NCBI GenBank assembly: GCA_015056735.1
Contig: SVFT01000001.1
Location: 1-64,000 of the forward strand
Origin: Lachnospiraceae bacterium
GTDB taxonomy: Bacteria > Bacillota > Clostridia > Lachnospirales > Lachnospiraceae
Length of the DNA stretch: 64,000 bases
Direction: 5' to 3'
In this document: one piece after another, positions 37,487 through 56,270 of the stretch
Position numbering within the stretch: the first letter of the stretch is position 1
Layout: each line of letters begins with the position of its first letter
Program-made: the position numbers and the translations under genes
Notes under the pieces: generated by a model
Told to the model about the DNA's origin: nothing
Databases searched by the model: none
Seen by the model: only the letters and a program-made list of their open reading frames with translations

Positions 37487-37514
37487 TGAGCCAGGGGGAC
37501 GGGGTGCCTGGTCC
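37487..37514 (+). repeat. GAGCCAGG palindromic repeat, copy 1
   Basis: TGAGCCAGGGGGACGGGGTGCCTGGTCC follows the chemoreceptor stop codon. The ends CCAGG/CCTGG pair. Further copies are at 40589, 50886 and 53307, each beside a gene end. Confidence 0.75.
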
Positions 37515-37530
37515 AAAAATCGCAATATCA

Positions 37531-37564
37531 ATCCTCGGATTTCCGAAAGAGATCCGAGGATTTT
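37531..37564 (+). terminator. ATCCTCGGAT-type terminator repeat, copy 1
   Basis: ATCCTCGGAT pairs perfectly with ATCCGAGGAT and is followed by TTT. Related sequences recur at 40632, 51220 and 57628, and as incomplete forms near 54265 and 54541. Confidence 0.75.
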
Positions 37565-37626
37565 CATCGATGTATTCTTTTACGCCCCTCTGACGGATAG
37601 TATGTTAGAGACGGAAGGAGTTTGCT

Positions 37627-39870
37627 ATGTTGGAAATCTTGCGTAATAACATTCGGAGAGATCTGTATCGGAACCGGATTACATATCTTCTTATGGGATT
37701 GCTGATCGCTGTCGGCATGTATATTGCTTCTTCATTGGCGGCCATCACCTATTCCTATAATCTCGTCTGCGAGAAGAATTATATCGATTCCAATTATCAG
37801 GACGGACAGTTTTCCCTTAAGAAACCTCTGACGGATTCGGAGGAGTCTTTCCTGGAAAAGCAGGGCTATGGGCTGGAACGGATTTTTTCATTCGATCTTA
37901 AGCAGGAAGACGGCAGTATCCTTCGCATCTTTAAGAACCGCCAAAAGATCGATCTGCTGGTCCTTGATAAAGGGCATCATCCCAAGCAGCTGCAGGAGCT
38001 TGTACTGGACAAGTGCTATGCATCTTCAAACGGGATCGCAGTCGGAGACAGCATACAGCTTGGTTCGCAGTCGTATCAAGTCTGCGGGATCGGTTCTGTC
38101 ACGGATTATGATATGCCGTCCAGAGGACTGTCTGATTACAGCTCTGACAGTGAATCGTTCGGTCTCGTATTCCTGACAGATCAGGGATATGAAGCATTGC
38201 TCTCGCAGATCGGAGACGGCACAAGGCAGGAATATGTATACTCCTATAAGCTGCCGGAAGGCGGTACGGATGATGACCTCCGTGAGAAAATCCAGGCCTC
38301 CTTCGGTGCAAACGCGAATGTCCTTACGTTTGTTCCGCGGGCCAATAATGAGAGAATGTGTTCTGCCGTGGCGGATGGATTTGCATATGAGATAGCCGGT
38401 TTTATCATCGGGATCGGGTTACTGGTCCTCGTGTCCGTCGTATTCTATCTTGGAATAAAATCTGCGATCGAGAAGGAAAGCGCTTCTATCGGGTCACTTT
38501 ATGCCATGGGTGTGAAGAAGACATATGTGATCATCATGTATCTGGCGCCGCCGACGCTGATCGCATTTGTCGCAGGATCGCTGGGATGGCTGGCCGGAAT
38601 ATGGTTCAGCGCGGCAGAGCTCATTTCCAATTCCGATTATTACTGCATACCCTATGTCCCGATCCGGACATCGCCGCTCATTTTTGTTTATTGCGTACTG
38701 GTACCTCCGATCGTTTGTTTTCTGATCAATTTTTTCAGATTAAACAGGGTCTTTTCGATGGCACCGGTGGCGCTACTCAAGGGAACGATCAACAATGATG
38801 TCCGGCAGTACAGAAGTCGGGGAAAAGGGCGCAGCATCCTGTGCGATCTGATCTTTTCACGTTTCTTAAAGGATATAGGACTATTTGCCGTTCTCCTGAT
38901 CGGATCCCTTGTGTCCGGAATGATCTATATGCTGGGAATCGGGATCGGCCAGTTTGTAAACAATATTGAAGAAAAGCTTCCGCAGGAGATCAACTATGAG
39001 TATGTGTATGACCTCATGGAAGATTCGGATGCGCCGGTAAAGACGGGTGAAGCGGTATACAAAAAGGTCTTTAAGATCGGCGACGAGGAATATATGTCCG
39101 ATATTCAATTCATCGGGCTTGAACCGACCGGTCAGTTCTTCCACGTGGATACGAAAGATCTGAACGGAAAAGTGCTGATCAGCAGCGCGGTCGCTTCACA
39201 CTATGACCTGGAGGAAAATGACGAGTTCACCGTATATGATGACCTGACGGGAAAAGCATATACGTTCTCCGTCGCCGGTATAGCAGATTATGATGTTATG
39301 TTAACTGCCTATATGGACATCGACGATCTGCGCGAACTGCTGGGCAAGGGAAAAGTTTATAACAGCATATACGCGAACGAGGTCTGCGATTACGCACCGT
39401 CGGAGCTGCGCGGCTCATATAAGAGGATAGACTATCTGAAACCGGTTGAGAGCTTTAATCTCGAGTCGGGGAGAATGCGGATATTCTTAATAACGGTATC
39501 ATTACTCTTTTATATGGCGATGGTCATTTTCATCGTGCGGTTCTCCGTAAACGGAGGGATGCATCATATCGCGATCCACTCTGTACTGGGATACAGCAAC
39601 AGGGAACTTCAACTGATCTTTCTCTCCAGTACGGCGGTATTCACTGTTTTGTGCGGGATCGTCGGATTGCTTACGGGGTTCGGATTCTCCGGTATCGTCG
39701 TCCGGTACCTGATGAATACAACCCCCATCGGGATTCATTTAAAATATCCCGTTGTGTCGTTCATAAGAGATGTCGCTGTTGTGATCTTCGTATATCTGAT
39801 AGCGGCGTTCGGTCCTTCCCGGCAGATCAAAACAATAAACGAGCTTGATCTTGTACGGGCAAACGAATAG
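37627..39870 (+). CDS. FtsX-type ABC transporter permease, 747 aa
   Basis: A large permease of the MacB/FtsX superfamily. One N-terminal span (about 18-40) is followed by an outer domain (about 45-255), three spans (about 260-380), a second outer domain (about 435-610) and a last three-span block (about 615-740). This duplicated layout is typical of full-length exporters of peptides or antibiotics. The ATPase gene follows 19 bp later. A 290-bp degraded copy of codons around 160-260 is found at 50.6 kb beside the double-glycine peptides. Substrate unknown. Confidence 0.88.
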   Translation: MLEILRNNIRRDLYRNRITYLLMGLLIAVGMYIASSLAAITYSYNLVCEKNYIDSNYQDGQFSLKKPLTDSEESFLEKQGYGLERIFSFDLKQEDGSILRIFKNRQKIDLLVLDKGHHPKQLQELVLDKCYASSNGIAVGDSIQLGSQSYQVCGIGSVTDYDMPSRGLSDYSSDSESFGLVFLTDQGYEALLSQIGDGTRQEYVYSYKLPEGGTDDDLREKIQASFGANANVLTFVPRANNERMCSAVADGFAYEIAGFIIGIGLLVLVSVVFYLGIKSAIEKESASIGSLYAMGVKKTYVIIMYLAPPTLIAFVAGSLGWLAGIWFSAAELISNSDYYCIPYVPIRTSPLIFVYCVLVPPIVCFLINFFRLNRVFSMAPVALLKGTINNDVRQYRSRGKGRSILCDLIFSRFLKDIGLFAVLLIGSLVSGMIYMLGIGIGQFVNNIEEKLPQEINYEYVYDLMEDSDAPVKTGEAVYKKVFKIGDEEYMSDIQFIGLEPTGQFFHVDTKDLNGKVLISSAVASHYDLEENDEFTVYDDLTGKAYTFSVAGIADYDVMLTAYMDIDDLRELLGKGKVYNSIYANEVCDYAPSELRGSYKRIDYLKPVESFNLESGRMRIFLITVSLLFYMAMVIFIVRFSVNGGMHHIAIHSVLGYSNRELQLIFLSSTAVFTVLCGIVGLLTGFGFSGIVVRYLMNTTPIGIHLKYPVVSFIRDVAVVIFVYLIAAFGPSRQIKTINELDLVRANE

Positions 39871-39889
39871 AGAAAGGCGGCTGGGTTTC

Positions 39890-40588
39890 ATGATAACTGT
39901 TAGCAATATAAAGAAAACATATGGCAGCGGAAGCGGTAAGGTTGAAGCGTTAAAAGGTGTTTCCTGCACCATTGAGGCAGGAGAAAAGTGCGTGATCATC
40001 GGCTCATCCGGTAGCGGAAAATCAACCTTGCTGAACTGCATCGGCGGTTTGGAAACACCGGATGAGGGCGAGATACTGGTTGACGGAACAGAGATCACGC
40101 ACCTTAAAAAAGAGGACTTGCGGTGTTTTCGAAGAGATAAATTGGGTTTTGTATTCCAATTCTATAATCTGCTCCCCAATCTGTGCGTCAGGGATAATAT
40201 CAGAGTCGGAGCGGGGCTGAGCAAATCGCCGATGGACTATGAGATGCTGTTGCATACCTTGGGGCTTGAGCGACTTGAGAAAATGTATCCGCCCGAACTG
40301 TCCGGCGGCCAACAGCAGAGGGTTTCCATCGCAAGGGCACTGATCAAGAATTCACCGGTGCTTCTGTGCGACGAGCCGACGGGTGCTTTGGATTCCGTAA
40401 CTTCCAAAGAGATCCTGAAACTGCTTGAGGAGATCAATAAGCAGTATGGGACAACGATCGTCATGGTCACACATAACAATGCGATCCCCAAAATGATGGA
40501 TACGACGATCGTGATGAAGGACGGTCTGATCGTAAGAACGGAAAAGAATTCGAATCCTGTGCCGGCTGAAGAACTGGACGATCTGTAA
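39890..40588 (+). CDS. ABC transporter ATPase (MacB/LolD type)
   Basis: A 232-aa ATPase partner of the FtsX permease. Walker A GSSGSGKST, Q-loop FVFQFYNLLPNL, signature LSGGQQQRVSIARAL, Walker B LLCDEPTGALDS. I use the ATG of MITVSNIKK; the ORF can be extended 45 nt upstream into the permease tail. Two-gene exporters of this kind often act in antibiotic-peptide resistance or peptide export; no sensor kinase adjoins it. The stop is followed at once by a GAGCCAGG repeat. Confidence 0.9.
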   Translation: MITVSNIKKTYGSGSGKVEALKGVSCTIEAGEKCVIIGSSGSGKSTLLNCIGGLETPDEGEILVDGTEITHLKKEDLRCFRRDKLGFVFQFYNLLPNLCVRDNIRVGAGLSKSPMDYEMLLHTLGLERLEKMYPPELSGGQQQRVSIARALIKNSPVLLCDEPTGALDSVTSKEILKLLEEINKQYGTTIVMVTHNNAIPKMMDTTIVMKDGLIVRTEKNSNPVPAEELDDL

Positions 40589-40616
40589 TGAGCCAGGGGG
40601 ACGGGGTGCCTGGTCC
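40589..40616 (+). repeat. GAGCCAGG palindromic repeat, copy 2
   Basis: Identical to copy 1 over 28 bases and placed directly after the TAA of the ABC ATPase gene, again followed by a CTCGG-type hairpin. Confidence 0.75.
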
Positions 40617-40631
40617 AAAATAGCAATGTCA

Positions 40632-49586: not shown

Positions 49587-50522
49587 TTAAATATAAAGAT
49601 AATAGCTTTCCGTGTCCCTGTTTCCGATCTTGGCAAGGACAAAATGAATATTTTCAAATGCGCGCTTTCCGTCGGAACGTTCTCCGAAGAAGCGCTGCTG
49701 GATCTTCGCCGGTGTCTCGTGCATATCGGCAATAAAACCCTGCCGCTCGAGCGCATCGTTGACTTCCTTGACCGAGTATCCGTGCAGCATCGGCTCTCCG
49801 AGGAAGGCGGTGATATCGGATAAGGTGCGAACGCGTTCCGGAGCGCTGTCACCAAGAGTCGTATCATCGGGAAAATCAAAAGCCAGTTTGCTGCCGAACG
49901 CGGCGATGTCTGCGATCTTATGAAGTGTCTCCTCAAAGACGGGTAGCGTCAGATAATATGTTACGCCCGGAATCGCAAAATAGGAAGGTGTTTTGGAATC
50001 AAAACCTGCTTTTTTCAACTCCTCCCGCATGTCATCCTTCCCGAAGTCGACGGCAACGTAATGCACGTTCTTCGGGATGATCCACTCCAGATGCTTGATC
50101 TTCTCCAGCTTATAGCGCTGTGTGTCGGGATGGTCGATCTCAAAGATTTCGATATCGGGATTCGTGTTGCGAAAAGCAAACGTATCCATGCCGGCGCCGC
50201 AAATCACATATTGGCACTTGCCAAACTGCCACGCAAAACGCACAAGCTCGCGTTCCGTGAATGCGCCGCGGGAGAGTGGGATCGGCGCGATGTACCGGTC
50301 CAGAATGTCGCGGATCTTCCTCCCGCTGAAGGAGTAGGCCGGATCATAAAGCTCTTTATGATAATCATGCTCGATCAGCTGCCCGACTTCTTCGTACTCT
50401 TCACGACCCATCAGATCGTAAGCCAGATAATCATCAAAGATCAGGTCCTTTTCGTAATTGGAATGGTAGGCGCGCACGAACGAGCAAAGCTTCGCGGTGA
50501 CGCTTTCCATATCATCTATCAT
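49587..50522 (-). CDS. SAM-dependent methyltransferase, leucine carboxyl-methyltransferase-like
   Basis: A 311-aa class I methyltransferase of the LCM/TIGR00027-like group. It shows YVICGAGMDTFAFR (SAM-binding glycine loop) and IFEIDHPDTQRYK with the acidic residue at the end of strand 2. Such proteins methylate carboxyl or small-molecule acceptors; the substrate is unknown. GAGGTGG lies upstream with two adjacent ATGs; I use the second for spacing. Upstream, ATACCTATCAGTAT is a dyad that could bind the Rrf2 regulator encoded next. Confidence 0.85.
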   Translation of the reverse strand: MIDDMESVTAKLCSFVRAYHSNYEKDLIFDDYLAYDLMGREEYEEVGQLIEHDYHKELYDPAYSFSGRKIRDILDRYIAPIPLSRGAFTERELVRFAWQFGKCQYVICGAGMDTFAFRNTNPDIEIFEIDHPDTQRYKLEKIKHLEWIIPKNVHYVAVDFGKDDMREELKKAGFDSKTPSYFAIPGVTYYLTLPVFEETLHKIADIAAFGSKLAFDFPDDTTLGDSAPERVRTLSDITAFLGEPMLHGYSVKEVNDALERQGFIADMHETPAKIQQRFFGERSDGKRAFENIHFVLAKIGNRDTESYYLYI

Positions 50523-50539
50523 CATACCACCTCACAGTC

Positions 50540-50580
50540 AATAACTTATAATACCTATCAGTATTGTAGGATATATTCTA
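50540..50580 (-). promoter_or_regulatory. Candidate Rrf2 operator / promoter of the methyltransferase operon
   Basis: The stretch ACTTATAATACCTATCAGTATTGTAGGATATA contains the dyad ATAC-ctatca-GTAT and TA-rich -10-like sequences on both strands. It lies 20-60 bases upstream of the methyltransferase start. The assignment is by position only. Confidence 0.35.
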
Positions 50581-50596
50581 TTCGGTTTTTAGTATT

Positions 50597-50886
50597 GTGT
50601 CAAGAGGGCTGTCTGATTACAGCTCTGACAGCGATACCTTTGGTCTTGCGTTCCTGACAGATGACAGTTATGAGGCGTTACTTGTGCAGACAGGAAACGG
50701 CACAAGGCAGGAATATGTATACTCCTATAAACTGCCGGAAGGTCATACAGATGCTGACCTTCGTGAACTGATAAAGACTTCCTCTGGCGCAAACGAGAAT
50801 GTCCTTACATTCGTCCCGCGAGACAATAATGAGAGAATATGCGCCGCAGTGGCTGATGGATTCGGGTATGAAATTGCCGGTTTTGT
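50597..50886 (+). pseudogene. Fragment of an FtsX-type ABC permease
   Basis: The translation (GLSDYSSDSDTFGLAFLTDD ... VLTFVPRDNNERICAAVADGFGYEIAGF) aligns without gaps to about residues 162-259 of the permease at 37627-39870, with scattered substitutions. It has neither the start nor the membrane part. The homology stops exactly where a GAGCCAGG repeat begins. It is a relic of a second copy of the exporter, located just upstream of the double-glycine peptide array. Confidence 0.88.
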
Positions 50887-50914
50887 GAGCCAGGGGGGAC
50901 GGGGGTGATGGTCC
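50886..50914 (+). repeat. GAGCCAGG repeat, copy 3 (diverged)
   Basis: TGAGCCAGGGGGGACGGGGGTGATGGTCC: extra G residues and GTGATGG in place of GTGCCTGG weaken the terminal pairing. It sits at the breakpoint of the permease fragment. Confidence 0.65.
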
Positions 50915-50960
50915 AAAATGAATAGAGAATCACAGAGGTCTTTTCATCCAAGAAAGAATG

Positions 50961-50998
50961 TTGTATTACGGAGCGCTGCTTCGTATATAGTTTTAGAA
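50961..50998 (+). promoter_or_regulatory. Array promoter a (TTGTAT-N17-TATATAG)
   Basis: TTGTAT (50961-50966), 17 bp, TATATA (50984-50989), then GTTTTAGAAC (GTT-N4-AAC). It belongs to a family of such elements in the array and drives peptide gene 1. Confidence 0.65.
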
Positions 50999-51027
50999 CC
51001 GAAAATAGGAGCGTGGAGGTATTTAAT

Positions 51028-51201
51028 ATGGAACTTACAGGAAAACTCAAAGAGCAAGTAGAACAGGCAAAAGATAAAGTAGAGGCCAAGAAGATTATCG
51101 AAGAAGCAGGTATGCAGCTTACGGACGATGAACTGGACCAGGTAGCAGGTGGTAAAAAAGTAAGAAAAGGTGATGTCCCTATAACTGATAAGTCTAGGTA
51201 A
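51028..51201 (+). CDS. Double-glycine peptide 1, Nif11-like leader
   Basis: A 57-aa precursor. Residues 1-42 form a charged helical leader (MELTGKLKEQVEQAKDKVEA ... LTDDELDQVAGG) of Nif11-like type ending in Val-Ala-Gly-Gly. After the predicted cut the core is KKVRKGDVPITDKSR, strongly basic, without Cys. GGAGG precedes the ATG (the longer GTG start of the track is not needed). First member of the array; no processing enzyme is nearby. Confidence 0.85.
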   Translation: MELTGKLKEQVEQAKDKVEAKKIIEEAGMQLTDDELDQVAGGKKVRKGDVPITDKSR

Positions 51202-51219
51202 GTCTCTCAAGTAATCATG

Positions 51220-51255
51220 TCCTCAGGTTTCTACGGGAGCCTGGGGATTTTTTGC
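51220..51255 (+). terminator. CTCGG-type terminator, variant
   Basis: TCCTCAGGTTTC...GGGAGCCTGGGGATTTTTT ends the transcript of peptide 1. CCTCAGG pairs with CCTGGGG by wobble, followed by six T. Confidence 0.65.
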
Positions 51256-51263
51256 ATCTGCAC

Positions 51264-51301
51264 TTGGACTATACGCACGAAGCGGATATAATTAAAGCAT
51301 G
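51264..51301 (+). promoter_or_regulatory. Promoter related to the higBA promoter
   Basis: TTGGAC (51264-51269), 17 bp and TATAAT (51287-51292), in the context CTGCACTTGGACTATACGCACGAAGCGG, close to the higBA promoter context. An ATG lies seven bases after the -10, opening a 23-codon ORF I cannot validate. Confidence 0.5.
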
Positions 51302-51340
51302 GGCGACCGAATTTTTGGCCGACGAATTTCTGTAGCAATG

Positions 51341-51380
51341 TTGCATCCCCTGCTTCTGTCTCGTATATAGTTATGTAACA
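51341..51380 (+). promoter_or_regulatory. Array promoter b
   Basis: TTGCAT (51341-51346), 17 bp, TATATA (51364-51369), then GTTATGTAAC, matching the GTT-N4-AAC pattern of the other copies. It precedes the ORF that contains the GAAA repeat. Confidence 0.6.
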
Positions 51381-51404
51381 GATAACCAAACAGAGGTTAA
51401 CGCG

Positions 51405-51464
<60 letters not shown>

Positions 51465-51500
51465 GTAGAGTCTGCCTGCCTTCTTATAATGGGAAAATTG

Positions 51501-51558
51501 CGGCACTTGCCGATTCTTTTGAGCTTATGGCTTGAAGGCGTCGGTAGGTGCCGTTTTT
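51501..51558 (+). terminator. Terminator before peptide 2
   Basis: CGGCACTTGCCGA (51501-51513) pairs over 13 positions, two of them G-U, with TCGGTAGGTGCCG (51541-51553), then TTTTTG. The long loop of 27 bases is unusual. Peptide 2 begins 30 bases later, so its expression may depend on read-through. Confidence 0.6.
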
Positions 51559-51587
51559 GTGTTTAAAAATCCAAAGGAGGGAACAAG

Positions 51588-51761
51588 ATGGAACTTACAG
51601 GAAAACTCAAAGAGCAGGTTGAGCAGGCTAAAGATAAAGCAGATGCTAAGAAAATCATAGAAGAAGCCGGAATGCGTTTGAACGATGAAGAACTTGATTT
51701 TGTTGTGGGCGGTTTTAGCGATAGCGGCTCGGCGATAATATTGCGGGATGGTCGTTATTGA
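51588..51761 (+). CDS. Double-glycine peptide 2, Nif11-like leader
   Basis: A 57-aa precursor (not listed in the track). Leader MELTGKLKEQVEQAKDKADA ... LNDEELDFVVGG, core FSDSGSAIILRDGRY. AAAGGAGGG precedes the ATG. It is nearly identical to peptide 10; the differences cluster at the leader end and in the core. The Gln before Val-Ala-Gly-Gly is replaced by Phe-Val-Val-Gly-Gly, which may alter recognition by a processing protease. Confidence 0.82.
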   Translation: MELTGKLKEQVEQAKDKADAKKIIEEAGMRLNDEELDFVVGGFSDSGSAIILRDGRY

Positions 51762-51805
51762 ATCATGTAATAGTGGAACCGAAAATAAGCATAGGAGGTT
51801 TTCGA

Positions 51806-51973
51806 ATGGAACTGACAGGAGATCTGAAGAAACGGGTAGAGCAGGCTGAGACAAAGGAAGAAGCAAAGGTTCTTATCGCGCAGGCTGGGATGGAACTGAC
51901 CGACGAAGAACTGGACCAGGTTGCGGGTGGTTTGTCGGCTTGTTCGTCTCGATCTTCCCCGTTTATTAATTGA
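51806..51973 (+). CDS. Double-glycine peptide 3, Nif11-like leader
   Basis: A 55-aa precursor. Leader ends LTDEELDQVAGG, core LSACSSRSSPFIN. This is one of only two cores with a cysteine; the Ser-rich stretch is the most lanthipeptide-like of the array, but no dehydratase or cyclase is in the window. AGGAGG precedes the ATG. It shares the upstream tag TAGTGGAACCGAAAAT with peptide 11. Confidence 0.85.
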   Translation: MELTGDLKKRVEQAETKEEAKVLIAQAGMELTDEELDQVAGGLSACSSRSSPFIN

Positions 51974-52074
51974 TCATTGTCCGCTCCGGCATATGCTGGG
52001 GCGGGATTTTTGTTAGTATATGATTGACAGGTAACAGCGTTGTCGTTACAATTGAGTTACGAGGAGATTGTGCT

Positions 52075-52380
52075 ATGGAAAAAACATCTACGTTGAACTT
52101 AAGAGTAAACCCCACTCTAAAGCAGAATGCAGAATCTGTGCTGGGACGTTTGGGAATACCGATGTCGACAGCTGTTGATATGTTTTTAAACCAGATTGTT
52201 TTGGTGGGCGGAATACCTTTCTCCGTAACGTTGCCTAAGGCGCCCGAAAGCATAGATGCTTCTGCAATGAGTGAGGAGCAGATCCATGCTAAGATACAGA
52301 AAGGTTATGAATCCTACAAAGCCGGAAGAACGCAGAATGCTGCAACTGCTTTTGAAAGGTTCAGGGAGAGCCATAGATAA
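52075..52380 (+). CDS. RelB/DinJ-family antitoxin, apparently without toxin
   Basis: A 101-aa protein. The N-terminal ribbon-helix-helix STLNLRVNPTLKQNAESVLGRLGIPMSTAVDMFLNQIV is typical of RelB/DinJ. The C-terminal part should bind a YafQ/RelE toxin. No toxin ORF follows; a TCCGGC hairpin comes 32 bp after the stop. GAGGAG precedes the ATG of MEKTSTL. It may be an orphan that acts in trans, or a relic of a TA pair. Confidence 0.85.
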   Translation: MEKTSTLNLRVNPTLKQNAESVLGRLGIPMSTAVDMFLNQIVLVGGIPFSVTLPKAPESIDASAMSEEQIHAKIQKGYESYKAGRTQNAATAFERFRESHR

Positions 52381-52412
52381 TGGAAAAGTACATTGTTGAA
52401 TAATGGACATTG

Positions 52413-52442
52413 TCCGGCTGTCATATGATGGCCGGTTTTTTG
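52413..52442 (+). terminator. TCCGGC hairpin repeat, copy 3
   Basis: TCCGGCTGTCATATGATGGCCGG followed by TTTTTTG, after the orphan antitoxin gene. Confidence 0.82.
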
Positions 52443-52471
52443 TTCGGAAAGTATCCTTTTGAGCTTCTGTA

Positions 52472-52495
52472 TCGTATATAATGATAGTTACAGAA
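52472..52495 (+). promoter_or_regulatory. Array promoter c
   Basis: TCGTATATAATGATAGTTACAGAAAC: the TCGTATATA block of the array promoters, here merged with a perfect TATAAT (52477-52482) and a GTT-N5-AAC element. It lies upstream of peptide 4. Confidence 0.5.
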
Positions 52496-52522
52496 ACATG
52501 TAAGTGATCCACAGGGGGTGCA

Positions 52523-52669
52523 ATGTTTATGGAAAATAAAGAGATCAAGAGATCCGAAGAACTGCAGGAAGAAGAATTACAGAACGAGCTATCTGACGAA
52601 GAAATGGAGAAGGTAGCCGGCGGGGGCAATTGGATGACCGAATTCTTAGAATGGCTGAAGAATGGTTAA
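52523..52669 (+). CDS. Double-glycine peptide 4, divergent leader
   Basis: A 48-aa precursor not in the track. The leader (MENKEIKRSEELQEEELQNE ... SDEEMEKVAGG) lacks the MELTG start and is acidic. The core GNWMTEFLEWLKNG has spaced aromatic and aliphatic residues and could form a short amphipathic helix. AGGGGG precedes the first ATG (52523); a second ATG at 52529 is possible. It is followed by a secreted-protein gene 50 bp later. Confidence 0.8.
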   Translation: MFMENKEIKRSEELQEEELQNELSDEEMEKVAGGGNWMTEFLEWLKNG

Positions 52670-52718
52670 TGAGATGTTTGGTATGATAGAATAGATATCA
52701 ATTTGAGAGGGGGAGTGT

Positions 52719-53309
52719 ATGAAAAAACGATTGGGAATAGTTTTGGCATTGGCTCTTGCCATGTTGCCTTGTGCGACAGCGTATGCAAAACCGGTGGCAG
52801 CAGGAGGGGACGAGCATTTATATACGCTGATCCAGCCGATCGGCAATAATGCACTGGCGACTTTACCTATACAGGTTAACAATGACAGATATCCGGGGTA
52901 TGTGACCCTTTATATGTCCGGCATCTCAAGGGGATGGGAGACGGGATATGATTCCTCAGTTGTGATCGTATCCGATAACGGCGAGATTTTGGGAGGCCCC
53001 GGTGTAGAGTGTATTGATGGCAAGCCGATTCGGTACATTCGGTATCATGACGGATCGGGCCTGATGGCCAATATCAAAGAAGGATTTGCTGCCACGATCT
53101 ATTTTACCGATTGGGACGGATCGGGCGATCTAAACCCGGCCGGAATTCTTTTGCCGGATGGAAGAATGATCCTTCTTGCCACGAATGATCAGTTAGCGTT
53201 TCTGGAGGGAAACTATACGGAATATACCGAATATGCGGATACTGTGCAGTATGGCGGTACAGAACATACCGGTACATTTAACTTCTGCGTAGATCAGAAG
53301 AATAAGTGA
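52719..53309 (+). CDS. Secreted protein of unknown function, 196 aa
   Basis: A clear signal peptide (MKKRLGIVLALALAMLPCATAYA, cut likely after AYA) and a mature part of about 173 residues rich in Tyr, Gly and Asp. Short turns such as SDNGEILGGPG and FTDWDGSGDLNPAG suggest a beta-sandwich or trypsin-like beta fold, though I see no catalytic triad. GAGAGGGGGAG lies before the ATG. It sits inside the peptide array and its stop overlaps a GAGCCAGG repeat. Confidence 0.75.
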   Translation: MKKRLGIVLALALAMLPCATAYAKPVAAGGDEHLYTLIQPIGNNALATLPIQVNNDRYPGYVTLYMSGISRGWETGYDSSVVIVSDNGEILGGPGVECIDGKPIRYIRYHDGSGLMANIKEGFAATIYFTDWDGSGDLNPAGILLPDGRMILLATNDQLAFLEGNYTEYTEYADTVQYGGTEHTGTFNFCVDQKNK

Positions 53310-53334
53310 GCCAGGGGGACGGGGTGCCTGGTCC
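53307..53334 (+). repeat. GAGCCAGG palindromic repeat, copy 4
   Basis: Identical to copies 1 and 2; its first TGA is the stop codon of the secreted-protein gene. As after copy 3, it is followed by AATAGAGAATCACAGAGGTCTT and here by a GAGGGGGCCTTTTTTT terminator-like end. Confidence 0.75.
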
Positions 53335-53434
53335 AAAACGAATAGAGAATCACAGAGGTCTTCTCATTACTGAGGGGGCCTTTTTTTCGTTGGCGGAGAA
53401 CTGCGGATACGGTATAATATTTTCTGTAATAATG

Positions 53435-53474
53435 TTGTATTGCAGGGCGTTGTTTCGTATATAGTTTTGGAACC
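53435..53474 (+). promoter_or_regulatory. Array promoter d
   Basis: TTGTAT (53435-53440), 17 bp, TATATA (53458-53463), then GTTTTGGAAC. A further TATAAT lies at about 53413. About 100 bp including this promoter and the start of peptide 5 are repeated at 55.77-55.92 kb. Confidence 0.65.
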
Positions 53475-53500
53475 AAAAATGAGTATATGGGGGAATGCAA

Positions 53501-53644
53501 ATGGATCAGAAGGATAAGAGGAATAATCAGGAAATCGGCGTTAAGCCTGATGAGATGCTAACGGACGAAGAGCTAAACCAGGTGGCCGGCGGATGCGGAG
53601 AGCAACAAGCTGCTGACGATAGTTATGCACTTGCGGCAGGTTAG
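53501..53644 (+). CDS. Double-glycine peptide 5, MDQKDKRN-type leader
   Basis: A 47-aa precursor not in the track. The short leader MDQKDKRNNQEIGVKPDEML ... TDEELNQVAGG is a second leader class, shared with peptides 11 and 14. Core: CGEQQAADDSYALAAG, with one cysteine at position 1 right after the predicted cut. GGGGGA lies eight bases before the ATG. Confidence 0.82.
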   Translation: MDQKDKRNNQEIGVKPDEMLTDEELNQVAGGCGEQQAADDSYALAAG

Positions 53645-53695
53645 TCGTTTTCTGTAAATAATTGAACTGTAAATGAGCGTTTGGGAGATGTACAC

Positions 53696-53851
53696 ATGAA
53701 CTTATTCAGAAAAGATAAAGACGAGACCAAGAAGGAAGTAAGCCCGGTAGACACAAAGGCCTCTGAAACACTGACAGACGATGATTTGGATCAGGTGGCG
53801 GGCGGAGGTCTGATTAAACCATCTAATACTCGTGAAATGCTCATCAGATAA
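53696..53851 (+). CDS. Double-glycine peptide 6, MNLFRKDKDE-type leader
   Basis: A 51-aa precursor not in the track. Third leader class: MNLFRKDKDETKKEVSPVDT ... LTDDDLDQVAGG. Core GLIKPSNTREMLIR. TTGGGAG precedes the ATG. The sequence from its GG codons through the start of peptide 7 is duplicated at 56.02-56.15 kb, where the leader is missing. Confidence 0.82.
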   Translation: MNLFRKDKDETKKEVSPVDTKASETLTDDDLDQVAGGGLIKPSNTREMLIR

Positions 53852-53881
53852 CAACATAATCTATCGAGGGAGGAATTCTGT

Positions 53882-54061
53882 ATGAAGCTAACAGGAAAAC
53901 TCAAAGAGCAAGTTGAACAGGCCGGCGATAAGGCAGAGGCTAAAGAAATGATTGCCGAAGCTGGCATGGAATTAGCAGATAAAGAACTGGATCAGGCTGC
54001 AGGTGGTATGGATCTAGGCTCATCATGGATTGAGAAAGGAACAAGCGTATATCTTCTCTGA
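53882..54061 (+). CDS. Double-glycine peptide 7, Nif11-like leader
   Basis: A 59-aa precursor not in the track. Leader MKLTGKLKEQVEQAGDKAEA ... LADKELDQAAGG, with Ala in place of the usual Val before Ala-Gly-Gly. Core MDLGSSWIEKGTSVYLL, rather hydrophobic. CGAGGGAGG precedes the ATG. Confidence 0.82.
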   Translation: MKLTGKLKEQVEQAGDKAEAKEMIAEAGMELADKELDQAAGGMDLGSSWIEKGTSVYLL

Positions 54062-54103
54062 TACACCATATATTTGTGTTATAGAATCACAGGAGGAAGC
54101 AGA

Positions 54104-54259
54104 ATGGAGCTTACAGGAGATCTGAAGAAGCAGGTTGAACAGGCCAACGATAAGGCAGAGGCCAAGAAAGCTATTGAAGAAGCTGGCATGCTTCTGACAG
54201 ATGAAGAGATGGATCAGGTGAGCGGCGGAATGTCGCCAATCAACACCAAAGTTTACTAG
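54104..54259 (+). CDS. Double-glycine peptide 8, Nif11-like leader
   Basis: A 51-aa precursor. Leader ends LTDEEMDQVSGG; the core MSPINTKVY is only nine residues. AGGAGG lies before the ATG; I drop the ten extra N-terminal residues of the track ORF. Short enough to be a signal peptide after cutting. Confidence 0.82.
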   Translation: MELTGDLKKQVEQANDKAEAKKAIEEAGMLLTDEEMDQVSGGMSPINTKVY

Positions 54260-54310
54260 TGCCAATCCTCGGATTTCTGTATGAGTCCGGGAAGCACAGG
54301 GGGTATTCAC

Positions 54311-54496
54311 ATGAAACTTACAGAAGATTTGAAGAAACAAGTTGAACAGGCCAAGACCAAGGAAGAAGCTCTGAAAATCATTGAGCAGGCAGGCATAGAA
54401 TTAACAGACGAAGAGTTGGATCAGGTAGCAGGCGGTGGCTTGTTTAGCAGTCTTTTTGTCGATTGGCCCGTTGATTTCAGTAGTGCGAGCGGCTGA
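54311..54496 (+). CDS. Double-glycine peptide 9, Nif11-like leader
   Basis: A 61-aa precursor. Leader MKLTEDLKKQVEQAKTKEEA ... LTDEELDQVAGG, core GLFSSLFVDWPVDFSSASG, the longest and most hydrophobic core. CAGGGGG lies nine bases upstream. The 5' region contains an incomplete CTCGG-type hairpin without T-run. Confidence 0.82.
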   Translation: MKLTEDLKKQVEQAKTKEEALKIIEQAGIELTDEELDQVAGGGLFSSLFVDWPVDFSSASG

Positions 54497-54587
54497 CGAT
54501 GATCTGGATCTGGTAGCCAATATGATACTTTTTACAGAATCATCCTCGGATTTCTGTATAAGTTCGGGAAGTATAGGAGGAAGCAAG

Positions 54588-54761
54588 ATGGAACTTACAG
54601 GCAAACTGAAAGAGCAGGTTGAGCAGGCTAAAGATAAAGCAGATGCTAAGAAAATCATAGAAGAAGCCGGAATGCGTTTGAACGATGAAGAACTTGCTCT
54701 TGTTGTGGGCGGTATTAGCGATAGCGGCTCGGCGACAATATCGCGGGTTGGTCGTTATTGA
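54588..54761 (+). CDS. Double-glycine peptide 10, Nif11-like leader
   Basis: A 57-aa precursor, near-twin of peptide 2. Leader ends LNDEELALVVGG, core ISDSGSATISRVGRY. Relative to peptide 2 the leader has two silent changes early on, while all six changes near the cut site and in the core alter the protein. AGGAGG precedes the ATG. Confidence 0.82.
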   Translation: MELTGKLKEQVEQAKDKADAKKIIEEAGMRLNDEELALVVGGISDSGSATISRVGRY

Positions 54762-54806
54762 ACCATGTAATAGTGGAACCGAAAATGAGCACATGGGGGA
54801 ATACAA

Positions 54807-54956
54807 ATGGATCAGAAAGATAACAGAAACGAGCATGAGATCAAGGAATTTGCCGGTGTAAAGCCGGATGAGATGCTCACAGATGAGGAGCTTGGGATGA
54901 TAAGTGCAGGCGGAAATGTGGACCTATTGGCTGAGCGCAAAAAGGATGATCGCTAA
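54807..54956 (+). CDS. Double-glycine peptide 11, MDQKDKRN-type leader
   Basis: A 49-aa precursor not in the track. Leader MDQKDNRNEHEIKEFAGVKP ... LTDEELGMISAGG differs at the cut site (Ile-Ser-Ala-Gly-Gly). Core NVDLLAERKKDDR, highly charged. GGGGGA before the ATG. The tag TAGTGGAACCGAAAATGAG upstream is shared with peptide 3. Confidence 0.8.
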   Translation: MDQKDNRNEHEIKEFAGVKPDEMLTDEELGMISAGGNVDLLAERKKDDR

Positions 54957-54979
54957 ACAGATCTCTGTAAAATCGACTG

Positions 54980-55018
54980 TAGCATTCCGGGCGTTTGTTG
55001 CGTATATAGTTCTATAAC
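54980..55018 (+). promoter_or_regulatory. Array promoter e
   Basis: TAGCAT at -35 distance, 17 bp, TATATA (55003-55008), then GTTCTATAAC. It precedes peptide 12. Confidence 0.55.
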
Positions 55019-55042
55019 AGAAAACTGATGGAGGGGTAGGAA

Positions 55043-55195
55043 ATGGAACTTACAGGAGAACTGAAAAAACAGGTAGAGCAGGCCAAAGATAAAACTGAGG
55101 CAAAGGAAATGATCGCTAAAGCTGGAATGCAATTGACCGACGAAGAACTGGACCAGGTTGCGGGTGGAAAAAAGATCCATTTTCGAAATGCTTAG
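55043..55195 (+). CDS. Double-glycine peptide 12, Nif11-like leader
   Basis: A 50-aa precursor not in the track. Leader MELTGELKKQVEQAKDKTEA ... LTDEELDQVAGG, core KKIHFRNA, only eight residues and basic. GGAGGGG lies before the ATG. Confidence 0.82.
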   Translation: MELTGELKKQVEQAKDKTEAKEMIAKAGMQLTDEELDQVAGGKKIHFRNA

Positions 55196-55214
55196 ATAAC
55201 AGGAGAATACACAC

Positions 55215-55277
55215 ATGAATCTTTTCAAAAAACGAAGTATTTATGTTACAGAAGCGATACAGGAGGTGCTTATATGA
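55215..55277 (+). CDS. Mini-ORF, start of a lost peptide gene
   Basis: MNLFKKRSIYVTEAIQEVLI, 20 aa. The first residues match the MNLFRKDKDE leader class of peptide 6 and the upstream GGAGAATACACACATG is also similar, but no GG region follows. It overlaps the ATG of peptide 13 (ATGA), so it may serve only as a coupling ORF after a deletion. Confidence 0.4.
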   Translation: MNLFKKRSIYVTEAIQEVLI

Positions 55278-55456
55278 AATTTACAGATGAACTTAAGAAG
55301 AAAATCGACACTGCGGCATCAGAGAAGGAAGTAAAGGATATCCTTGAAAATGTCAAGGGGGGGGCGGAGGCCGCAGGCTTAATCCTTGACGACGAGGAGC
55401 TGGATCAGGCGTCAGGTGGGGCTTCATCGATGAAAGCGTACCAAAGAGGGCGCTAA
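55274..55456 (+). CDS. Double-glycine peptide 13, lengthened leader
   Basis: A 60-aa precursor. The leader MKFTDELKKKIDTAASEKEV ... LDDEELDQASGG is diverged and has an additional internal GG (NVKGGAEAAG, about residues 28-32). Core ASSMKAYQRGR after the second GG. CAGGAGG precedes the ATG. It is translationally linked to the mini-ORF. Confidence 0.8.
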   Translation: MKFTDELKKKIDTAASEKEVKDILENVKGGAEAAGLILDDEELDQASGGASSMKAYQRGR

Positions 55457-55836
55457 AGAGAGGGTTTGAAAAAATATCTGTAAATTAGATAACACCACAG
55501 TTATAAAGGTCTTCTATGATAAAATCAATTATCATAAGGAGACCAATGTATAGCCTGCCATCATCGGTGCCGGGATGAGATCAGATAATGTGGTGTATGA
55601 AGAGGCAGCCAGGAGAATATCAAAACTGTACGGATCATCAAAAAATAATAGTCGATTGGTTGCGTATATACATACAACGAGAACTATACTGCATTGCTCA
55701 ACATGAAACAGGGTTCTAAATGAATAATGGATTTAAGAGGCTTTCTCATCGCAGAGTGGGCCTCTTTTTCATTGGCGGAGAACTGCGGATACGGTATAAT
55801 ATTTTCTGTAAGAATGTTGTGTTGCAGGGCAGCGTT
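55457..55836. other. Gap between peptides 13 and 14
   Basis: This 380-bp stretch has a strong hairpin at about 55507-55545 (GGTCT..TATGATAA..TTATCATA..AGACC). A GCGTATATA element lies near 55672 without a recognisable peptide behind it. A 43-codon ORF (55575-55706, MRSDNVVYEEAARRISKLYG...) has no convincing ribosome site. A GAGGCTTTCTCAT...GGGCCTCTTTTTC terminator-like end lies near 55735-55772, and a TATAAT near 55797. I cannot support a gene here. Confidence 0.5.
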
Positions 55837-55856
55837 TCGTATATAGTTTTGGAACC
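55817..55856 (+). promoter_or_regulatory. Array promoter g
   Basis: TTGTGT (55817-55822), 17 bp, TATATA (55840-55845), then GTTTTGGAAC. Nearly identical to promoter d including flanks, which points to a recent duplication. Confidence 0.65.
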
Positions 55857-55882
55857 AAAAATGAGCACATGGGGGAATACAA

Positions 55883-56023
55883 ATGGATCAGAAAGATAAG
55901 CGGAATGAACAGGAAATCAAAGAAGCTGTCGGTGTAAAGCCGGATGAGAAGCTTACGGATAATGAGCTGGATGAGGCTTCAGGCGGCATAGAGCACGAGT
56001 ATCAACATGAGTATAACTGGTAG
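55883..56023 (+). CDS. Double-glycine peptide 14, MDQKDKRN-type leader
   Basis: A 46-aa precursor not in the track. Leader MDQKDKRNEQEIKEAVGVKP ... LTDNELDEASGG, core IEHEYQHEYNW with two His and two Tyr. The TGG-TAG ending arises where the sequence joins a relic of peptide 6 (GGTAGCGGGCGGAGGT); this junction gave the ORF its stop codon. GGGGGA precedes the ATG. Confidence 0.8.
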   Translation: MDQKDKRNEQEIKEAVGVKPDEKLTDNELDEASGGIEHEYQHEYNW

Positions 56024-56106
56024 CGGGCGGAGGTCCGATTAAACCATCTAATACTCGTGAAATGCCCATCAGATAACAACATAATCTATCGAGGGAGGAA
56101 TTCTGT
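56024..56106 (+). pseudogene. Leaderless relic of peptide 6 core and spacer
   Basis: GTAGCGGGCGGAGGTCCGATTAAACC and what follows repeats 53.80-53.88 kb with a few changes and would encode VAGG-GPIKPSNTREMPIR in frame with nothing upstream. Homology begins at the double-glycine codons. Confidence 0.75.
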
Positions 56107-56270
56107 ATGAAGCTAACAGGAAAACTCAAAGAGCAAGTTGAACAGGCCGAGAACATGGCGGAAGCAAAAAGGTAATCGAAGATGCGGGCATGCTTCTGAA
56201 CGACGAAGAACTGGATAAAGTAACAGGGGGCGGCGCAACTTCCAGACGATCCAGGTCTAAGGGCAGATGA
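56107..56270 (+). pseudogene. Double-glycine peptide 15, frameshifted
   Basis: Starts MKLTGKLKEQVEQAENMAEA and then meets TAA because the tract GCAAAAAGG has one A too few. Restoring one A gives KKVIEDAGMLLNDEELDKV-TGG and the core GATSRRSRSKGR with stop at 56268-56270. The first part is duplicated from peptide 7. AGGGAGG precedes the ATG. Confidence 0.8.

Follow-up and report, generated by a model that had tools for sequence, protein, structure and literature searches.

What is a piece of an ABC permease gene doing directly upstream of an array of peptide genes, and does it betray an exporter that once served them? The question arises in the genome of a Lachnospiraceae bacterium, where the window (the whole 64,000-nucleotide stretch that was analysed) holds an intact FtsX-type operon, a fragment related to its permease and an array of short genes with double-glycine leaders (Table 1). 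A first-pass annotation had described the fragment as a degraded piece of the permease beside the array, ending at a palindromic repeat, and its coordinates and description were right. It had also proposed that the exporter or part of it once stood beside the peptides or that the repeats had duplicated it, and that the intact exporter may be linked to the array; these proposals fared less well. The most probable reading, to which we give a probability of roughly 0.78, is that the fragment is a truncated pseudogene: a diverged second copy of the permease would have been cut at the boundary of a REP-like element and would have lost all but 286 bases.

Table 1. Features of the window that bear on the origin of the permease fragment (coordinates are window positions).
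Position	Strand	Feature	Evidence or remark
37487..37515	+	REP-like element preceding the intact operon, then a terminator similar to one at 40630
37627..39870	+	Intact FtsX-type ABC permease, 747 aa	PF02687, E=3.6e-17; orthologues 85% in C. aminophilum
39845..40588	+	ABC ATPase, same operon as the intact permease	PF00005, E=2.6e-37
40589..40617	+	REP-like element immediately behind the ATPase stop codon
49587..50525	-	Divergent SAM-dependent methyltransferase	PF04072/TIGR00027
50599..50884	+	Probable pseudogene fragment, FtsX/MacB-type permease	Codons 164-259 of the intact homologue; 80% nucleotide identity to 38118-38403
50886..50914	+	Decayed REP-like element abutting the fragment	blastn to the copies at 53307, 37487 and 40589; weaker fold
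50915..51027	+	Terminator remnant, then promoter region of the first peptide gene	Alignment; left part 91% identical to 53307-53367; several tens of bases deleted
51028..56252	+	Peptide array: about 15 short genes whose double-glycine leaders are similar and whose C-terminal parts differ
53307..53335	+	REP-like element located at the stop codon of a gene for a 196-aa secreted protein	Closest relative of the module at 50886

Identity and boundaries of the fragment

The fragment aligns with the intact permease gene without gaps and with 228 identities in 286 positions (blastn of 50401-51100 against the window, E=1e-55), a score that rules out chance similarity. It retains 96 of the 747 codons, and its translation is 80% identical to the genome's own intact permease and 74% identical to that of [Clostridium] aminophilum. 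A genome-wide tblastn search for the permease ranks the intact gene first and the fragment second (75%, E=1e-44). Derivation from an unrelated permease, a doubt that the annotation itself had raised, is ruled out, as the fragment groups with the genome's own and the C. aminophilum genes. It has no family match in Pfam, and no relative of it was found among plasmid records.

On the right, homology ends at 50884 and a single G precedes the repeat, TGAGCCAGGGGGGACGGGGGTGATGGTCC, which begins at 50886. On the left it ends at 50598/50599, within the promoter region of the divergent methyltransferase gene. This left junction invites the idea that the fragment was kept for a new role, for example as part of that promoter. 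The best match in a promoter scan for the methyltransferase gene, TTGACA-17-TAGAAT on the minus strand (50603 to 50575), straddles the junction, the first bases of the fragment complete its -35 box, and the intact gene lacks the C to A change from which TTGAC results. At most five fragment bases would be used, however, and chance alone would be expected to produce about one match of this kind in the region, so that the predicted promoter is only a curiosity and a retained role is unlikely.

The fragment itself is predicted to make no protein. It has no start codon with a ribosome-binding site and no transmembrane core. Its frame contains neither an indel nor a stop, which is uninformative, since under 27 neutral substitutions the frame would stay open in 46% of cases. 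A functional small open reading frame was also considered, and is rejected on the missing start signal together with the apparent loss of constraint described below.

The intact operon and its relatives

The only Pfam matches of the intact permease are the FtsX domain and a sub-threshold MacB core; it has no C39 peptidase domain. Like other FtsX/MacB-type ABC permease operons, the operon combines an FtsX domain protein with an adjoining ABC ATPase, but its sequence is far from solved members of the group, with no significant match among solved structures (best PDB match E=0.47). Few genomes carry the permease: a contig scan recovered it in C. aminophilum (two records, 85%) and Pseudobutyrivibrio sp. 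MD2005 (60%), and at E<=1e-100 it occurs in 2 of 397 sampled genomes of the family, this one and an aminophilum-type genome (G339, 85%).

Two direct copies of a REP-like element plus terminator bracket the intact operon (window 37487-40617); the C. aminophilum orthologue of the operon has no REPs and other neighbours. The aminophilum-type genome G339 contains a second permease copy, 61% identical and with an internal stop (C11:76748-78988, L084), and second permease copies seem to decay there too.

REP-like elements and the right junction

The repeat that abuts the fragment belongs to a large family. The pattern GAGCCAGGGGGACGGGGTG, allowing up to three mismatches, finds about 56 copies in the 2.73-Mb genome and none with reversed-pattern controls. 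The annotation's view of the fragment as a degraded member of the permease family that ends at a repeat from a palindromic family is supported. The copies are near identical, reading TGAGCCAGG-GGGACGGGGTG-CCTGGYYCA, and many form inverted pairs about 50 bp apart. A single Y1 transposase gene is found in the genome (PF01797, over the cut-off); it lies on contig C21 with REP-like copies on both sides, and it matches the model for REP-associated tyrosine transposases (RAYT; NF047646) with E=1.9e-21 and 76.5 bits, just below the cut-off of 80.

To judge from these matches, the repeat is a REP-like element accompanied by a REP-associated tyrosine transposase gene, with mobilisation by the RAYT putative. 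The set resembles described REP/REPIN plus RAYT systems (REPtrons) in its palindrome of about 29 bp, its copy number and inverted pairs, its intergenic sites, often at stop codons, and its single-copy RAYT-like gene flanked by copies. It differs from them in the score of its transposase and in the edge of its repeats: in most REPs described so far the foot is GTAG or CGTC (PMC3733652), which was found in none of the copies examined here, whose conserved 5' edge is TGAGCC, and for this reason the elements are called REP-like. With up to two mismatches the repeat was not found in ten relatives, C. aminophilum included; this search set comprised eight genomes outside the species (seven of the same genus and one aminophilum-type) and the genomes holding the loci L053 and L054.

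From the first bases of the repeat onwards, the module that follows the junction shares 91% identity with 53307-53367, and before that point the two are unrelated: left of the REP edge lies the permease fragment in one case and the end of the 196-aa secreted-protein gene in the other. Because the similarity of the two modules starts at the REP, its edge is the breakpoint on both sides of this comparison, a coincidence of breakpoint and REP edge that is a single case. The copy at 50886 has an extra G and has lost its 3' arm; its folding energy is -7.3 kcal/mol, compared with -11 kcal/mol for the 53307 copy. The terminator that follows it is of the array type, unlike the type that follows the operon's REPs. 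Since the operon REP carries a different terminator, the repeat beside the fragment is not simply the operon's downstream copy retained.

Age and probable loss of constraint

In the fragment region, dS is 0.87 between the fragment and the intact gene, 0.55 between the fragment and the C. aminophilum orthologue and 0.88 between the two intact genes. Trees of the three leave a trichotomy, with split support of 38% and 44%. Because the three are about equidistant, the fragment is, on these distances, a separate old lineage and not a recent copy of the intact gene. Recent duplication of the intact gene was ruled out, as dS is too large.

The same figures weigh on the proposal that the REPs duplicated part of the intact operon into the array locus, where the copy then decayed. 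Such an event would agree with the direct REP copies at 37487 and 40589 that flank the operon and with the end of the fragment at a REP. The divergence of the fragment from the intact gene, however, is as large as that of the intact gene from its orthologue in another genus-level group, the REP copies are near identical and were found in none of the relatives searched, and the terminator after the fragment's REP is of the array type rather than the operon type. We regard repeat-mediated duplication, as the first-pass annotation had proposed it, as very unlikely. Since the repeat was not found in the ten relatives searched, it probably did not bring about a duplication of this age, and the event that it marks is probably the truncation that came later.

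Changes unique to the fragment fall on codon positions 1, 2 and 3 in a ratio of 7/8/12 (15 of 27 at positions 1-2), as against 2/2/19 on the branch of the intact gene and 7/2/11 on that of C. aminophilum. Compared with the two intact branches pooled, the difference gives p=0.046, with only 27 substitutions in the fragment. Fragment and intact gene differ by 19 amino-acid changes, where the median under neutrality is 37, and most of their divergence thus looks constrained. The pattern points, with modest statistical support, to a loss of constraint on the fragment after an earlier constrained period.

Origin of the fragment

The favoured reading, a truncated pseudogene of a diverged second copy, would run as follows. 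A second divergent FtsX-type permease, either an old paralogue or one acquired separately, would once have lain between the methyltransferase gene and the peptide array, and all but 286 of its bases would then have been lost. On the right, the break falls at the 5' edge of a REP-like element that bears the terminator and promoter region of the first peptide gene, and the loss is therefore most likely due to REP copies recombining with one another or to the REP transposase. Decay of the REP (the extra G and the lost arm) and of the terminator would have come afterwards. The relic fits repeat-bounded truncated pseudogenes in being a partial gene with no start signal, apparently elevated non-synonymous change and one end that coincides with a repeat from a mobile family; the lost gene here would be a diverged second copy, not a recent duplicate, and otherwise it differs in nothing essential. 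A full second copy at this site was found in no strain or close relative, the same-genus genomes that were searched being without the locus. As for the neighbours of the site in relatives, a methyltransferase homologue occurs in one genome, at only 47% identity, and the GAF-domain neighbour in one same-genus genome only.

A broader role for the repeats may also be imagined. The REP-like elements and their transposase could serve as mobile junctions for small peptide cassettes, each made up of a REP, a terminator, a promoter and a leader gene, with the array growing and diversifying by REP-bounded recombination and the fragment as the scar of a cassette joined to foreign DNA. The match of the 50886 module to the 53307 module from the first REP base is a hint in this direction, as is a single leader gene at C22:298425 between two direct REPs. 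Against it, no REP accompanies the related module near 55736, and several of the array's leader genes are likewise without one close by; we think such a role improbable. With truncation of a second permease copy as the preferred account, the locus is a modest instance of genome change associated with REPs in a Lachnospiraceae-related bacterium, in which a gene copy is truncated at a REP edge and the transposase is still present.

Export of the peptide array

There remains the suggestion that the array once had the ABC transporter beside it as its dedicated exporter, that the transporter was replaced by the copy 12 kb upstream, and that exporter and peptides are still functionally linked. The position of the permease piece, directly upstream of the array and in the same orientation, is what speaks for it. 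The distribution of the two components speaks otherwise. Among the 397 sampled family genomes, seven have array-type leaders and two the permease (E<=1e-100), and only this genome has both. An alignment-based search found no array-type leaders in three permease-bearing genomes, two of them aminophilum-type and one Pseudobutyrivibrio (G339 and the genomes of L053 and L054), and no permease homologue (E<=1e-8) was found around the leaders in eight regions from five other Lachnospiraceae genomes. In these samples the FtsX operon thus does not co-occur with array-type leaders as a dedicated exporter would.

FtsX permeases, moreover, are without a C39 peptidase, whereas the genome has one C39 exporter of the NHLM type. 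The sole C39 peptidase domain in the genome belongs to an ABC transporter on another contig (C15:43128-45260) that scores above the NHLM exporter cut-off, and beside it lie an NHLM partner subunit and a sigma factor gene, with a degenerate array-type leader nearby. Another genome (G126) has a 74%-identical NHLM pair with array-type leader genes on both sides. NHLM exporters over the cut-off occur in six of the seven leader-bearing genomes and in 1 of 14 others, the latter not being a random sample. As in NHLM/NHLP bacteriocin export systems, both ABC subunits are present, of which one scores above its curated cut-off, with a sigma factor gene and a double-glycine leader gene nearby; in contrast to those systems, the leaders of the array score below the Nif11 and NHLP leader cut-offs.

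On these grounds the NHLM pair on another contig appears a better candidate exporter of the array than the FtsX operon, and that an FtsX-type transporter was or is its dedicated exporter is very improbable. Of the earlier suggestion that the exporter or part of it once stood beside the peptides, one half survives: to the extent that the sequence can tell, a permease gene, or only a piece of one, did once stand at the site. The functional link between exporter and array finds no support, given the permease-bearing relatives without leaders, the sampled leader regions without permease and the dedicated NHLM exporter. The result is mainly a correction: the fragment is an ordinary gene relic, a truncated pseudogene at a REP boundary, and no evidence for an FtsX-type transporter exporting the peptide array.

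Further observations on leader genes

A CGTATAT motif lies upstream of several peptide genes of the array (window 50982, 51362, 52473, 53456, 55001 and 55838), in many cases with a (G)CATT/GTATT element about 20 bp before it. It also occurs upstream of leader genes elsewhere in the genome (L083 399, minus strand; L079 4285, minus strand), including the NHLM cluster with an ECF-like sigma factor gene, and possibly marks a shared regulon of leader genes.

A single leader-type gene elsewhere in the genome (G000:C22:298260-298606) lies between two direct REP-like elements; its neighbours are what we take by eye to be a thiE-like and a comM-like gene. Upstream of the NHLM exporter gene, a short open reading frame (L079 9316-9615, minus strand) resembles, again by eye, a truncated HlyD-type accessory protein.
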